NCBI RefSeq assembly: GCF_023256195.1
Contig: NZ_JAGDWX010000023.1
Location: 62,839 to 126,838, forward strand
Source: Acidithiobacillus sp.
GTDB taxonomy: Bacteria > Pseudomonadota > Gammaproteobacteria > Acidithiobacillales > Acidithiobacillaceae
Length of the DNA stretch: 64,000 nt
Direction of reading: 5' to 3'
A program made the translations under genes and the position numbers. Below, one piece after another: positions 44,337 to 51,023 of this stretch (within the stretch, counting starts at the first letter, position 1; each line of letters begins with the position of its first letter). The notes under the pieces are model-generated. The model was not told where the DNA came from and did not search any database. It saw only the letters and a list, made by a program, of their open reading frames with translations.

Positions 44337-45697
44337 TGTCCAGGCTCTATTGGCTGCTGACCTTCCTGCTGACGCCCCTCCTGTGGCTCTACACCTTATG
44401 GAAGATCTGGCGTCGGCCCAGCTACCGACCGGGTTGGCGTGAGCGTTTCGGCTGGGTCCCGCAGGCGCGTGGGCGCCGCCCCATCTGGATCCACGCCGTG
44501 AGCGTGGGGGAGAGCATGGCCGCGCTGCCGCTACTGCGGGCACTGCTGGAGCGCTATCCGGGTCAGCCCCTGGTAGTCACCAGCACGACCCCGACCGGTG
44601 CCGCCACCATCCGGCGGCACCTGGGTGGCCAGGTCAGCAGTCTTTACCTTCCCTACGATACCCCAGGCCCCGTACGACGATTCCTGCGGCGCCAGAACCC
44701 CTGTGCCGGGATTTTCCTGGAGACGGAAATCTGGCCGAATCTCTATCGCGCCGCCCGTCGCGCACGGATTCCCCTGGCCCTGCTGAACGCGCGGCTATCC
44801 AGGTCCTCGCAACGGGGCTATGGACGCTTTTCCGGGTTGTTCGAGCCGCTCCTCCGGGACTTGCCCATCGCTGCCCAGAGCGAGAAGGATGCTGCGGCCT
44901 TTATGAGGCTCGGGGCAAGGCGGGTGACGGTGCTTGGTCAGATCAAGACCGATCTGCCGGAGCCAGAGGCCGCGCGACAGGCGGGGCAGGCGTGGCGCAC
45001 GCAGCTGGGAGATCGCCCGCTCTGGGTATTTGCCTCTACCCACGCCGGCGAGGAGGAGCTCGCCCTGGATGTGCTGAAGCTCCTGCGGCGGGAGTTTCCG
45101 GATTTGCTCCTCGTGCTTATCCCCCGTCATCCGGAGCGTGGTGACGCTGTCGTTACGACCATCCGTGCCGCAGCACAGGGCTGTCGACGGCGATCCCGGG
45201 GAGAGGCACCGCAGCCCGGTGAGACGGCCGTTTTCCTCATCGATACCCTGGGCGAGGTGCTGGACTTCTATGCCGCAGCGGATGTGGTCACCATCGGCGG
45301 CAGCTTCGTCCCGGTTGGCGGCCACAATCCCATAGAGGCTGCCGTCCTGCGTCGAGCCCCGAGCTTCGGTCCGCACATGGAAAACTTCGCGGCCGTAGCG
45401 CAGGCCTTGGTGGAGGCGCAGGCCGCCTTTCCGACCCGTGGCGCTCAGGATCTTGCAAGGCAGCTCGGCAACTTGCTGCGTGAGCCCGGGTTACGGGCAG
45501 CGGCGGGCGAACGGGCGGCGCGCTGGGTGCGCGCCCAGCGGGGGGCGCTGGCAGCAACCCTGGAGTGGTTGACGCGGGAAGCGGTCCTGCCGGCGCCCCG
45601 GACGCCAGAGCTCAGGCGGGCGGAGACAGAAGATCCAGGGCCTGCTGCAGGCGATCGAGCCCAGCCTGCAGCAGAGGACGCGGACAGCCGAAATTGA
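44333..45697 (+). CDS. waaA: 3-deoxy-D-manno-octulosonic acid (Kdo) transferase
   Basis: Inner-membrane enzyme transferring Kdo from CMP-Kdo to lipid IVA. It has 454 residues with an N-terminal membrane helix (about 4-22), WIHAVSVGESMAALPLLRALLERYP, STTPTGAATIRR, FLETEIWPNLYRAARRARIP, FASTHAGEEELALD and a C-terminal GGSFVPVGGHNPIEAAVL. The family is usually about 425 residues long. The last 28 codons form a Pro/Ala/Glu-rich tail that lies antisense to ovoB (86-base convergent overlap), so the tail may be a recent extension. Confidence 0.95.
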   Translation: MMSRLYWLLTFLLTPLLWLYTLWKIWRRPSYRPGWRERFGWVPQARGRRPIWIHAVSVGESMAALPLLRALLERYPGQPLVVTSTTPTGAATIRRHLGGQVSSLYLPYDTPGPVRRFLRRQNPCAGIFLETEIWPNLYRAARRARIPLALLNARLSRSSQRGYGRFSGLFEPLLRDLPIAAQSEKDAAAFMRLGARRVTVLGQIKTDLPEPEAARQAGQAWRTQLGDRPLWVFASTHAGEEELALDVLKLLRREFPDLLLVLIPRHPERGDAVVTTIRAAAQGCRRRSRGEAPQPGETAVFLIDTLGEVLDFYAAADVVTIGGSFVPVGGHNPIEAAVLRRAPSFGPHMENFAAVAQALVEAQAAFPTRGAQDLARQLGNLLREPGLRAAAGERAARWVRAQRGALAATLEWLTREAVLPAPRTPELRRAETEDPGPAAGDRAQPAAEDADSRN

Positions 45698-46784
45698 GGC
45701 GCCGGAAACCGGCGCCGCCGGGACCGAAATCGGCGCCGGCATTGAGCCCTAGGCCCACCTCGCGCAGCACCGCGTCGATGCGCTCGTCGTCCTGACCGTA
45801 GCGGCGCAGATCGATCCAAGCGAGATAACCGAACTCCGGGGGCCGAAAACCCAGGGCTGGCAGGTCCGCCGCCAGGCGTGCGGCAAGATAGAGCGCATGG
45901 CCCCGCAGATAGGAGCGGATGCCCTCCAGCCAGGGGCCGCCTTCGCGCCAGGCGGCGATGCCCCCCACCAGGGCCGGCAGCGTGGCGTGCTGGCACTGCG
46001 AGCGTTCCAGTTCCTCCCGCAGGAGACGTCGTGCCTCTTCATCGCCACAACTCAAAAAAGCGCCGCCGAGGCCAGCCATGTTGAAGGCCTTACCGGGCGC
46101 GCTGAGCAGTACCGCTTCGGGCATAAGCCTCGGTAGCGGAGTGTGTGGCAGCTGACTCAGATCCGCGTGGATCTCATCGCTGACCACCCGCACGCCGCGG
46201 CTTCGGCACAGTTCCACCAGGGACGACAATTCCTCGGCACTCCACACCCGGCCTACCGGGTTGTGGGGCGAGCAGAATAGAAGGAGCCGTGTCCCATTCA
46301 GGGCATCGGCCAGTTGCTCCCACGGGATCCGGTAGACGCCCTCGGCATCCGGCTCCAGGGGCAGGGTCCGCAGCCGCCGTCCGTTGCTGCGCACCGCCTG
46401 AAGAAAGGGGGGATAGACGGGCGTCAGGACCAGTACGGTGTCCTCTATCGCGCTGAGGGCGCGGACGGCGGCAAAGAGCGCCGGCACCACACCGCTGGCC
46501 ACCAGGGTCTGCCCCGTTTCCGGTCCCCAGCCGTGCCGCTGTCTCATCCATTGGGAAGCGGCCGTGAGATATTCGTGATCCAGCCAGGGATAACCCAGGA
46601 TGGGATGCTCCAGCCGCCGTCGCAGGGCTTCCAGTACCACCGGTGCCGTGGGCAGATCCATGTCCGCCACCCACATGGGCAGAACCTCGGCACCGAAGCG
46701 TGCCCGCGCCCCATCCCACTTCAGAGAACCGGTACCGTGACGATCCCAGATGCGGTCGAGATCGTCCAAGGCGTCCATCGTCAT
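45612..46784 (-). CDS. ovoB: PLP-dependent C-S lyase of the PatB/MalY type, predicted OvoB
   Basis: Fold-type I PLP enzyme of 390 residues related to cystathionine beta-lyase. The PLP lysine is K232 in LLSAPGKAFNMAGLGGAF. Other landmarks are MWVADMDLPTAP, GYPWLDHEY, CSPHNPVGRVW and VVSDEIHADLS with the cofactor-binding Asp. Its start overlaps the ovoA stop (ATGA), so the pair is co-translated. In ovothiol synthesis a lyase of this family (OvoB) cleaves the sulfoxide made by OvoA to 5-thiohistidine. Without this context it would be called a generic PatB lyase. The 3' end overlaps convergent waaA. Confidence 0.85.
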   Translation of the reverse strand: MTMDALDDLDRIWDRHGTGSLKWDGARARFGAEVLPMWVADMDLPTAPVVLEALRRRLEHPILGYPWLDHEYLTAASQWMRQRHGWGPETGQTLVASGVVPALFAAVRALSAIEDTVLVLTPVYPPFLQAVRSNGRRLRTLPLEPDAEGVYRIPWEQLADALNGTRLLLFCSPHNPVGRVWSAEELSSLVELCRSRGVRVVSDEIHADLSQLPHTPLPRLMPEAVLLSAPGKAFNMAGLGGAFLSCGDEEARRLLREELERSQCQHATLPALVGGIAAWREGGPWLEGIRSYLRGHALYLAARLAADLPALGFRPPEFGYLAWIDLRRYGQDDERIDAVLREVGLGLNAGADFGPGGAGFRRLNFGCPRPLLQAGLDRLQQALDLLSPPA

Positions 46785-48895
46785 GCCGGCAGTCGTTCCC
46801 AGACGGTGACCTCGGCAACGCTGTGCTGGAATTTGCGCGCCGTCTCCCGGATCACGAAGGGCAAATCGCGCGGAAAGCCGGGCCGCAGGCGAAATAGACC
46901 GTCGAGGGCGACGTGTAACCCCCTGAGTGTGCTGAAGTTCTCGCCGTCCTTCTTGAAGCCGCCCAGCCAGTGCTCCTTGGGCGTGAACTCCTCCAGCCAG
47001 GTGTAGGGGGAGCTGATCACCAGCAGACCCCCTGGGCGGATGCGTCCGGCAATGTCCTTCAGGAAGACCTCGGGCTCGCGCAGGCGGTCGATGAGATTGG
47101 CTGCGAGGACCAGATCGAAATCGCGGTGAATGGGCTTGAGATTGCAGGCATCGCCCTGGAAGAACTGCACCCGATGGCTGCATTCCTGCAGACCCAAAGC
47201 CGCCAGGTCCGCCCAATGGTAGCTCTGCAGTTCCCCCTCCTCGACGACGGCGTAGGGAAAACGACCTCGGCTTTGCAGCTGGACTCCTACCTGGATGAAA
47301 CGCGCCGAAAAGTCGATACCCACCACCTCGTCGAAGACTCGAGCCAGCTCGAAGGTGCTGCGCCCCACGGCACAGCCGATGTCCAACGCCCGCCGCCGCG
47401 GACCGTCGCCGAGGGCCTCCAGGGCAAGCCGAGCCATGGCTGCCGGATAGTTGGCCACCTCAAAGTGGCTCGGGCCGTAGTGGAAGTCGCAATACTGCGC
47501 TACCAGGGTGTCGCTCTCGTAGACGGGTACTTGCGGCAGGGGATTATCGGAGCGCACATAGCGAAAGCCAGCATGTTGGAAGAAGTGACGACGGAAGGCG
47601 TAGCGTGCCTCGCGCTGGGTCTCATTGCCGCAACTGATGAAAGAACCCCCTTTGATGAGATTGTGGCGCTGATCGAAGGTGGGGACCGTGAAGTCGTCGT
47701 AGTAGGGATGCACCTCGAAGCCGGGAAAGGGGTAGATGGGTGTTTCCGTCCACTGCCAGACATTCCCCACTACGTCGTAGCAGTCACCGTGACGATAACG
47801 GTCCACAGGGCAGGGCGAGCAGCCTTTGGCCAAGGCGATCTGTCCCGGCGCCTCACGCCAGGCATCGGCATCCGGCAGACCGCTCAGGTCGCGCAAGCGC
47901 CGCCACTCGTCTTCCGTGGGCAGACGCAGTTTTTCACCAGTCTGCGCCGACTTCCAGGCGCAGAAGGCCGCCGCCTCGTGATAATTCACCTCGACGGGCC
48001 AATCCCAGGGCATCGGTCGTAGTTCCGCGATGAGGCGCAGCTGCCACTGACCCCCCTCACTTTGCCAGAAGCTAGGGTGTCGGGCTCCAGCAAAGCGGCG
48101 CCAGGCATCTCCTTCGCTGCCCCACCAGCGGGACTCTCCATAGCCGCCAGCCTCCACGAATTCCAGAAACTCACCGTTGCTGACCAGGTAGCGGCTGGCG
48201 GCAAAATCGCCCAACTCCTGCCGATGTTCCCCGTATTCGTTATCCCAGCCATACAGAGGGCTGTGGCGTTCCTTGCCCAGCCGCACCAGACCGGCGGGGA
48301 TGGGGATGAGCTCATTGCGTGGTGCCGACCGCGTGCTCCCAAGGGGTTCCGGGGCGAATTCGGGAACGGGTCGCACCCGCTCCAGCGGCAGCTGGCGCAT
48401 GAGTACGGAGCTCGTCTCCAGGTGGATGTTCTCGTGCTCGATTCCCATGAGCACGGCCCACCAGGGCGATTCCCAGGTGATGGGCAAGGACAGGGGTAGA
48501 CGACGGATCACCGCGTCCACCATCTCCCGTACTCGTGCACGGTAGGCCCGCACTGCCTCCACCGAGGGCCAGTCGTAGTGGGATTCGTCCAGATCGTCCC
48601 AGGACATCTCATCCACACCGACGGCAAAGATGGATTCCAGGACGGGATCCAGGTGTTCCTCGATGAGACCGGCTACCCGAAATTTATTGGTGAAGAAGGT
48701 CGCCGTGTGACCGAAGTAGAAGATCAGCGGGTGGCGCAGACTGATGGCCTTTTCGTACCAGGCACGATCGTCGGCGAGGTGCTCGAAAAGGCGTTCGTAA
48801 CGGGAAAAACCGTTGTGGAAAAGCCGCCGTATCTCCTCACGTTTTTGCTCTGCATCGGTGCCATCCAGGCGCAGTGCGCCCACAGATTCGGACAT
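46781..48895 (-). CDS. ovoA: Ovothiol synthase OvoA: 5-histidylcysteine sulfoxide synthase fused to methyltransferase
   Basis: Non-haem iron enzyme joining cysteine to C5 of histidine with oxygen, carrying the N-methyltransferase that finishes ovothiol A. It has 704 residues. A DinB-like helical domain comes first, with the iron ligands H63 (FYFGHTATFF) and H154/H158 (GIEHENIHLE). An FGE-sulfatase-type domain follows (about 195-450, LRLPTEDEWRRL, GNVWQWTETPIYPFPGFEV, YYDDFTVPTFD, KGGSFISCGNE). A SAM methyltransferase domain is last (about 465-704, ALDIGCAVGRSTFELA, VVGIDFSARFI). The fused methyltransferase and the Tyr-rich YYDDFTVPTFD region distinguish OvoA from EgtB. AGGAGG lies eight bases before the ATG. 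Confidence 0.93.
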   Translation of the reverse strand: MSESVGALRLDGTDAEQKREEIRRLFHNGFSRYERLFEHLADDRAWYEKAISLRHPLIFYFGHTATFFTNKFRVAGLIEEHLDPVLESIFAVGVDEMSWDDLDESHYDWPSVEAVRAYRARVREMVDAVIRRLPLSLPITWESPWWAVLMGIEHENIHLETSSVLMRQLPLERVRPVPEFAPEPLGSTRSAPRNELIPIPAGLVRLGKERHSPLYGWDNEYGEHRQELGDFAASRYLVSNGEFLEFVEAGGYGESRWWGSEGDAWRRFAGARHPSFWQSEGGQWQLRLIAELRPMPWDWPVEVNYHEAAAFCAWKSAQTGEKLRLPTEDEWRRLRDLSGLPDADAWREAPGQIALAKGCSPCPVDRYRHGDCYDVVGNVWQWTETPIYPFPGFEVHPYYDDFTVPTFDQRHNLIKGGSFISCGNETQREARYAFRRHFFQHAGFRYVRSDNPLPQVPVYESDTLVAQYCDFHYGPSHFEVANYPAAMARLALEALGDGPRRRALDIGCAVGRSTFELARVFDEVVGIDFSARFIQVGVQLQSRGRFPYAVVEEGELQSYHWADLAALGLQECSHRVQFFQGDACNLKPIHRDFDLVLAANLIDRLREPEVFLKDIAGRIRPGGLLVISSPYTWLEEFTPKEHWLGGFKKDGENFSTLRGLHVALDGLFRLRPGFPRDLPFVIRETARKFQHSVAEVTVWERLPA

Positions 48896-48967: not shown

Positions 48968-48991
48968 GAAAAACCCCGCACGGGGCGGGGT
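48968..48991 (-). terminator. Intrinsic terminator after the phosphate transporter
   Basis: On the minus strand ACCCCGC and GCGGGGT pair around a CCCGT loop and are followed by TTTTC. It lies about 25 bases beyond the transporter stop and upstream of the ovoA promoter, insulating ovoAB from the transporter transcript. Confidence 0.85.
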
Positions 48992-49016: not shown

Positions 49017-50414
49017 TTAGACGTGGACGGGTTGACTGCCGGGTCCCGGCACCACATTGTCCTCGCCGCTGATATCTTCGAGGGTGCGGCCGGAGGGTTC
49101 TTTGAGGCAGAAGGCGGTGAGAAGGAGTCCGGCGAGGGCGAAGAAGAAAGTGACCATGAGGGTGCCGTGGAGGCCAAACTTGGCCAGGAGGATGGGGAAG
49201 ACCAGGGCACCGAGGAAGGCGCCGACCTTGGCGGTACCGGCGGAGAGGCCGTGGCCGGTGGTGCGGAGGTTGACTGGGAAGACTTCGCCGGCCAGCACGA
49301 AGGTGGTGGTGTTGGGGCCGTATTCGGCGAAGAAGTAGGACAGGCCATAGAGGACCAGGAAGACGGCAATGGACTGGGTCAGGATGGGGAAGGCGCCGAT
49401 GAGCAGGAACATCAGGCCCATCATGAAAAAGCCCAGCATCTGCAGGGTCTTGTGACCGACCCGATCGATGGTGAAGGCGGCCAGGAAGTAGCCCGGCACG
49501 GCGGCGACGGCAAAGACGATGAGGCTCAGCGCGGTGCTCTGGATGACGTCGGCGTGGGGGGCGAGGTGATGCATGACCATGGGGGTGGAGATGGTGTTGC
49601 CGTAGTAGGCGTAGTCGAACATGAACCAAGAGCCGGCGGTACCCAGCAGGGTGAGCCAGTACTTGGACAGGGGCTGCTTGACGATCTTGTCGCTCTTGTT
49701 GGCGACGGCGGTGCCGAGGCTGAAGGAGGCCAGCTGGCGCTCGGCGGTGGCGCTATCGCCCTTGACGCGGGCGAGCCAGCGTGGGGATTCCGGGAGGGTA
49801 CGGCGGATGTAGATGACGGCCATGGCGGGCAGGGCGCCGAGACCCAGCATCAGGCGCCAGGCGGTATCGTGGTCCATACCGGCGGCGAGGAGGGTGAGGG
49901 CGACGACAGGGCCCATGACGAGGCCGATGGCCTGAGCGGAGAAGACCAGGGACACCATGCGGCCGCGGGATTTGGCGTTGGCGTACTCCGACATGAGCAC
50001 GGCGGACATGGGATAATCGCCGCCGATACCAAGACCGAGGATGACGCGGGCGATGAGCAGGACGGTGACATTGGGCGCGACGGCGGAGAGCAGGGCGCCA
50101 ATGGTCATGAGGATGGCCTCCAGACCGTACACCTTCTTGCGCCCGAGCTTGTCGGCGAGGATGCCGAAAAAGTAGGCGCCGACGAAGGTCGCGATAAGGG
50201 AGATGGAGCCGATGAGGCCCACCTCGGAGGCACTGAGGTGCCATTCGGCCTTGATGAGGACAAGAGCCGTGCCGATGATGAAGAGATCGTAAGCCGAAGT
50301 GAAGAAGCCCATGGAGGCCGCCCACATGGCCTTGAGGTGGAAGGGACTGAAACTTGCCGTATTGAGGGCGTCGGCAACGGTGCTTTCACGCACGCTGCTG
50401 GATGCGGATGCCAT
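49017..50414 (-). CDS. MFS phosphate transporter of the PHS (Pho84-like) family
   Basis: Twelve-helix major facilitator of 465 residues, predicted to import phosphate with protons. The PHS-family pattern is clear: GLGIGGDYPMSAVLMSEYA in the first half (helix 4 region), the MFS loop ILADKLGRKKVYG, WFMFDYAYYGNTISTP after the central loop, and FAEYGPNTTTFVLAGEVFPVNLRTTGHG in helix 10-11. Pho84-type transporters share these blocks. The tandem Pho box upstream and AAGGAG before the ATG fit phosphate-starvation induction. A sugar or acid transporter of the same superfamily is the less likely alternative. Confidence 0.88.
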   Translation of the reverse strand: MASASSSVRESTVADALNTASFSPFHLKAMWAASMGFFTSAYDLFIIGTALVLIKAEWHLSASEVGLIGSISLIATFVGAYFFGILADKLGRKKVYGLEAILMTIGALLSAVAPNVTVLLIARVILGLGIGGDYPMSAVLMSEYANAKSRGRMVSLVFSAQAIGLVMGPVVALTLLAAGMDHDTAWRLMLGLGALPAMAVIYIRRTLPESPRWLARVKGDSATAERQLASFSLGTAVANKSDKIVKQPLSKYWLTLLGTAGSWFMFDYAYYGNTISTPMVMHHLAPHADVIQSTALSLIVFAVAAVPGYFLAAFTIDRVGHKTLQMLGFFMMGLMFLLIGAFPILTQSIAVFLVLYGLSYFFAEYGPNTTTFVLAGEVFPVNLRTTGHGLSAGTAKVGAFLGALVFPILLAKFGLHGTLMVTFFFALAGLLLTAFCLKEPSGRTLEDISGEDNVVPGPGSQPVHV

Positions 50415-50470
50415 GACGAAACTCCTTGCTTTGCGGTGGATTTTGGTGCTGCGATCCTATCCTAACAAAG

Positions 50471-50514
50471 CAATGTGACACTTTTATGAAGTTTTTATGA
50501 CAATTTCATGACAA
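50471..50514 (-). promoter_or_regulatory. Tandem Pho box (four 11-base repeats)
   Basis: On the minus strand four consecutive 11-mers read TTGTCAT-GAAA, TTGTCAT-AAAA, ACTTCAT-AAAA and GTGTCAC-ATTG. This is the seven-plus-four periodicity of PhoB sites (CTGTCAT-AWAW), here as two boxes in tandem with no phase slip. It fills the space between the trmL stop and the transporter promoter. TAGGAT at 50456-50461 is a reasonable -10. Confidence 0.9.
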
Positions 50515-50516
50515 AA

Positions 50517-51023
50517 TTAGCCGCCGCCGACGTAGCCCTGTTGCCGCCAAGCCTCGAAGACGGCTACGGCGACGCTGTTGGCGAGATTCATGCTGCGGCT
50601 GCCGGGCCGCATGGGCAGGCGCAGTCTCTGCTCCGGCGCAAACTCCTGCAGCAGATCGGGTGGCAGACCCCGCGTCTCCGGACCGAAGAGAAAGACATCG
50701 CCCGGACGGAAGCGAGCCGCGGCGAAGCTGCCCGGTTCCGCCTTGGTGGTAAAGGCCAGGACGCGACGGTTGCCCAGTGCGCGTCGACACGCGGGCCACT
50801 GGGCATGGCGCCGCACGGTGGCAAACTCCCAGTAGTCCAGACCGGCACGGCGCAGACGCGCATCGTCCCAGGCGAAACCCAGGGGCTCGATCAGATGCAG
50901 GACGACTCCGGTATTGGCGCAGAGGCGGATGACATTGCCGGTATTGGGGGGGATTTCCGGCTCGAAGAGTACGACGTCCAGCCAGGATTCCGCCTCGGCT
51001 TCGGCGTGGGCTTCAGGTGGCAC
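50517..51023 (-). CDS. trmL: tRNA (cytidine(34)-2'-O)-methyltransferase (SPOUT family)
   Basis: Methylates the wobble base of two leucine tRNAs in E. coli. It has 168 residues with the SPOUT knot motifs [23 protein letters not shown] at the N-terminus, [11 protein letters not shown], and [26 protein letters not shown] at the C-terminus. The start is GTG and overlaps the comF end by 11 bases. A short Glu/Ala-rich N-terminal extension of about 13 residues precedes the domain. Confidence 0.93.

Follow-up and report, generated by a model that had tools for sequence, protein, structure and literature searches.

Pho84-like proteins have already been reported in acidithiobacilli (A. ferrooxidans, A. 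thiooxidans and A. ferrivorans), bacteria known to lack PitA (PMC5826283, PMC5328820, PMC5468388), and some of these papers treat the proteins as metal-phosphate exporters (PMC5826283, PMC5468388, PMC5328820). The transporter considered here is of the same kind: it is Pho84-like and it comes from the same bacterial family. The passages available on its relatives deal with uptake or metal export in general and leave Pho boxes unmentioned. In addition, pst, ppx and phoBR are known as members of a Pho regulon (PMC2621215), and a phosphate–iron cluster with TonB receptors, a phospholipase and an MFS protein was described in 2008 (PMC2631029). The earlier note's view that a PhoB-controlled MFS of the Pho84 type is uncommon in bacteria thus needs a qualification: the genes themselves are known in acidithiobacilli (PMC5826283, PMC5328820). 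In the open-licence literature we found no report of Pho boxes at these genes or of Pho-box control of any bacterial Pho84-like gene.

The closest characterized proteins are the PHS symporters (yeast Pho84, Piriformospora PiPT and plant PHT1), which the transporter resembles in its best profile and fold, in its Pi-pocket residues and in an identity of about 31% to PiPT. It differs from them in a shorter middle part (465 aa in all), in a score half the curated one and in a Ser at the position of PiPT Asp45. Unlike the yeast and plant genes, it appears to be under bacterial PhoB-type control, in place of their phosphate regulators.

Promoter region of the transporter gene

On the minus strand, from 50514 to 50471, the window (the whole 64-kb stretch of DNA that was analysed) reads TTGTCATGAAA TTGTCATAAAA ACTTCATAAAA GTGTCACATTG, the reverse complement of 50471-50514, and thus holds four exactly phased 11-mers, as the earlier note had seen when it described four phased Pho-box repeats just before an MFS gene. 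Searched with up to 3 mismatches, the four-unit Pho pattern has one match in the window (2 mismatches) and none in 100 dinucleotide shuffles, and the two-unit pattern (up to 2 mismatches) occurs in the window no more often than expected by chance; the signal therefore lies in the four-unit array (table 1).

Table 1. Coordinates of the transporter locus within the window
Feature	Position	Strand	Basis
Four phased 11-bp Pho half-sites, i.e. two tandem PhoB boxes, third unit degenerate (ACTTCAT)	50471..50514	-	sequence, shuffles, orthologues
-10 hexamer TAGGAT, 10 nt past the last NTGTCAC half-site; box replaces -35	50459..50464	-	sequence; register common to 16 other own-genome Pho sites
Ribosome-binding site AAGGAG, 7 nt 5' of ATG	50422..50427	-	read from sequence
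465-aa PHS-like MFS transporter (pho84-like), predicted phosphate:H+ symporter, ATG at 50414	49017..50414	-	profile, fold, residues
Intrinsic-terminator-like hairpin with T-run, 3' of the transporter gene	48973..48986	-	2 in region vs 1.0 expected
trmL, upstream co-directional gene, outside the Pho unit	50517..51023	-	gene call

With at least two NTGTCAY half-sites phased at 11 bp, and with a box lying about 10 nt 5' of the -10 where a -35 would otherwise stand, the region has the features of a class II promoter of the PhoB regulon. Indeed, the array, the -10 hexamer, the ribosome-binding site and the ATG follow one another in that order on the same strand, so that the site is laid out like an entire PhoB-type promoter and is more than a mere repeat. 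The penultimate unit (window 50482-50492) reads NNTTCAY where NTGTCAY is expected, and this deviation recurs in several four- and six-unit arrays of the same genome as well as in the promoters of all 13 close orthologues; shared in this way by several own-genome arrays, the odd ACTTCAT is a recurring feature and no flaw. The E. coli pstS promoter also has a double Pho box, with a similarly degenerate third half-site. The two promoters are alike in their four 11-bp half-sites and replaced -35, but the array in the window precedes a single MFS gene and no Pst operon.

The Pho regulon of the genome and the conservation of the array

The genome that contains the window (1.98 Mb, 99.99% complete), whose closest named relatives are Acidithiobacillaceae, encodes both regulators of a PhoB regulon, namely PhoB (305.5 bits against a curated cut-off of 296.2, TIGR02154) and PhoR (381.1 bits against 334.2, TIGR02966), and a profile search of it also returned two PstS proteins, PstB and PhoU. 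The lack of a phoB gene, which the earlier note had named as a finding that would speak against its reading, is thus not what the genome presents, the gene scoring above the curated cut-off. A genome-wide scan for PhoB motifs, also proposed there, gave 12 exact matches to two phased half-sites; when the sites around these matches are counted together with related weaker ones, 16 other arrays precede genes, each followed by NANNNT (A at position 2, T at position 6) at the spacing seen in the window. The same box-to--10 register therefore recurs before phosphate genes: those behind the arrays include pstS twice, pstB-phoU, PPK2, ExbB, TonB receptors, olsB, an OprD porin, an OmpA-like protein and a second MFS.

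Several of these Pho-boxed loci deserve mention in their own right. On contig C37, a phosphate-scavenging island (L039:3875-17344) with four Pho arrays of 2-6 units holds TonB receptors, a 977-aa phosphoesterase plus beta-propeller protein, ExbBD, an OmpR-type DNA-binding protein and the second MFS; the cluster described in 2008 resembles this island and is unlike the transporter locus (49017..50514). In the second MFS (L039:9447-10817), W, G and R occupy the positions of PiPT Q177, N431 and K459, and since it lacks these three Pi-site residues its substrate is probably other than phosphate. The ornithine-lipid acyltransferase gene olsB and, following it, a second acyltransferase gene (L040:16647-18425) lie behind a four-unit array, and probably serve to make phosphorus-free membrane lipids during starvation. 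Polyphosphate kinase 2 (PPK2; L050:2078-3343) follows a two-unit box, and two further Pho-boxed genes encode a 645-aa protein with weak beta-propeller matches (L047:2773-4707) and a 316-aa protein (L049:1695-2645), both without a Pfam family.

With regard to relatives, the four-unit array with its weak third unit was found at the window gene and at 13/13 of the close orthologues found (83-98% identity), in which it lies about 88-102 bases 5' of the coding match. Of the five members of a paralogue clade (51-53% identity), four carry four units and one carries two; two units also precede the second copy in the sister genome and, in another family, a homologue at 44% identity. A 60% homologue has a weak two-unit match only, and no array was found upstream of the eight distant MFS homologues (28-33% identity). 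Two genera share the gene order trmL-pho84-ovoA, and in one genus where the transporter lacks both neighbours the array is still there, which indicates that it travels with the transporter.

This bears on the idea that the repeat arose by chance or has no function, or that it serves trmL or another gene. The array does begin 3 bases beyond the stop codon of trmL, which ends at 50517, but a repeat of this kind appeared in none of the shuffles, relatives preserve it together with its -10 register, also where the neighbour is not trmL, and its orientation and spacing fit the transporter only, so that we regard this idea as extremely improbable.

The transporter protein and its probable role

Among NCBIfam models, the protein scores best with TIGR00887 (phosphate:H+ symporter; 294.7 bits, against 172.1 for the next model), although this best score falls below the curated PHS equivalog cut-off of 610.3 bits. 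Structures have been solved for its relatives rice PHT1-11 and Piriformospora PiPT, and its AlphaFold model (pLDDT 80.5) has a PiPT-like fold, the top PDB matches being PiPT at TM 0.74-0.83. Taking residue roles in PiPT and PHT1 from PMC6761603, we found the counterparts of PiPT Y150, Q177, W320, D324, Y328, N431 and K459, that is, the Pi pocket, to be identical in 88/88 homologues, a count that is biased at the D149/Y150 motif, which was part of the search pattern, and unbiased for the other residues. The counterparts of D48, E108 and D149 are kept and R123 is invariant, and the position of Asp45 is occupied by Ser40 (Ser in 26/88 rows, all of one tree branch), so that the H+-transfer set of PiPT (D45, D48, E108, R139, D149) is incomplete through this one residue, the equivalent of which in AtPHT1;1, D35, is essential in plants (PMC6761603). 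The PHS/Pho84-type assignment of the earlier note thus holds for best profile, fold and Pi-binding residues and falls short of the curated cut-off; because of this score and of the one proton-path residue, we withhold formal PHS membership, while the transporter most likely works like a PHS symporter.

No Pit was found in any of the 29 Acidithiobacillaceae genomes searched, the same search being positive in 10/14 control genomes, and a Na/Pi cotransporter is absent from the genome of the window. Pit (PF01384) is likewise a secondary, ion-driven phosphate carrier, but of an unrelated family. Given the two Pst-type binding proteins, the MFS would add to Pst and fill the place that is usually Pit's. 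Replacement of Pit as a general rule was rejected, Pit being present in 7/9 genomes checked through homologue loci, which leaves it as a feature of Acidithiobacillaceae.

Overall, the sequence shows the operator, the promoter register, PhoB/PhoR, the conservation, the protein family and the Pi-site residues. On this basis, we think it very probable that the gene encodes a PhoB-induced, proton-driven phosphate importer that is switched by starvation, and the earlier suggestion of a PhoB-controlled phosphate transporter gains support from the regulator genes, the promoter layout shared with phosphate genes and the PHS-like profile, residues and fold. The array would then be a pstS-type operator with two PhoB boxes: upon phosphate starvation, PhoR would phosphorylate PhoB, which, bound to the four half-sites and standing in for the -35, would recruit sigma70 RNA polymerase to the TAGGAT -10, and the product would import phosphate with protons in the manner of Pho84 and PiPT. 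Such an importer would suit a cell that lives in strong acid, has no Pit and can always draw on a large inward proton gradient. PhoB binding, induction, substrate, transport direction and proton coupling are what we infer here.

Two other roles have to be weighed against that of an importer. Two papers on acidithiobacilli propose that their Pho84-like proteins export copper-phosphate (PMC5468388, PMC5328820), and pho84-like genes of Metallosphaera go up on copper exposure (PMC5859850), as would be in line with a metal-resistance pump that mainly expels copper-phosphate from polyphosphate. A starvation-type PhoB operator, however, would silence the gene once the breakdown of polyphosphate had filled the cell with phosphate; moreover, this operator is conserved across the family and the protein has the residues of an H+-driven importer, which makes such a pump improbable here. 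PhoB control could also be real with another phosphorus compound as substrate, such as phosphite, phosphonate or glycerophosphate, as the score under the PHS cut-off and the Asp-to-Ser change in TM1 might suggest. MFS families, for their part, switch substrate easily. Against this, the Pi-binding set is invariant, PHS is the best match by profile and fold, and the second Pho-boxed MFS, devoid of three Pi residues, is a better candidate in the same genome, so that we give such a substrate little credence. Arsenate or metal-phosphate is conceivable as the relevant substrate.

The Pho boxes of the transporter provide a regulatory argument on the role that Pho84-like proteins play in biomining bacteria, in favor of the import of scarce phosphate rather than mainly the expulsion of copper-phosphate. 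They also suggest that acid-dwelling bacteria, with their steep inward proton gradient, may use a carrier of fungal or plant type under bacterial starvation control, and the Ser that replaces Asp at a conserved position of the proton path lends itself to a natural test of proton coupling in PHS symporters.

Homologues in other phyla and neighbouring genes

A scan of named genomes returned homologues at 51-72% identity in Alicyclobacillus, Sulfobacillus, Desulfosporosinus acididurans, Hydrogenobaculum, Ferrimicrobium and many metagenome bins. Outside Acidithiobacillaceae, phased Pho-type arrays of period 11 were detected in 28/71 upstream regions, and the other periods between 7 and 17 gave 0-2 each. 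The regions come from a set with a sampling bias and are related to each other, so that they do not amount to 28 independent events; the motifs were chosen from known PhoB/PhoP boxes with thresholds set by hand, and the comparison of periods serves as the control. Bacillota and Planctomycetota have boxes of the TTTACA/TTAACA type, Bacteroidota have TTCACA/TTTACA and Actinomycetota have GTTCACC. We therefore advance, tentatively and with slightly more doubt than confidence, the view that a PHS-like H+:phosphate importer may have come under the control of the local PhoB/PhoP system in several bacterial phyla, with a box dialect particular to each (TTGTCAT, TTTACA/TTAACA, TTCACA, GTTCACC), would replace Pit in Acidithiobacillaceae and, in one branch, would work without the membrane Asp that is essential in a plant relative.

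At E <= 1e-75, homologues occur in 1/398 sampled Pseudomonadota (the genome of the window itself) and in 18/300 genomes of the Alicyclobacillus class. A strict restriction to acidophiles was rejected in view of these 18 genomes, a set of which have homologues at 48-49% identity, and wide horizontal transfer across phyla was dropped, as a quick tree groups the homologues mostly by phylum (11 changes, minimum 9).

On the other side of the transporter gene lies ovoA, and co-transcription of the two was rejected on account of the terminator-like hairpin between them. Both ovothiol domains of ovoA (window 46784-48895, minus strand) score above cut-off, and the gene is followed by one for a PatB-type C-S lyase (45615-46760, minus strand), so that an ovothiol pathway is probably encoded beside the transporter.
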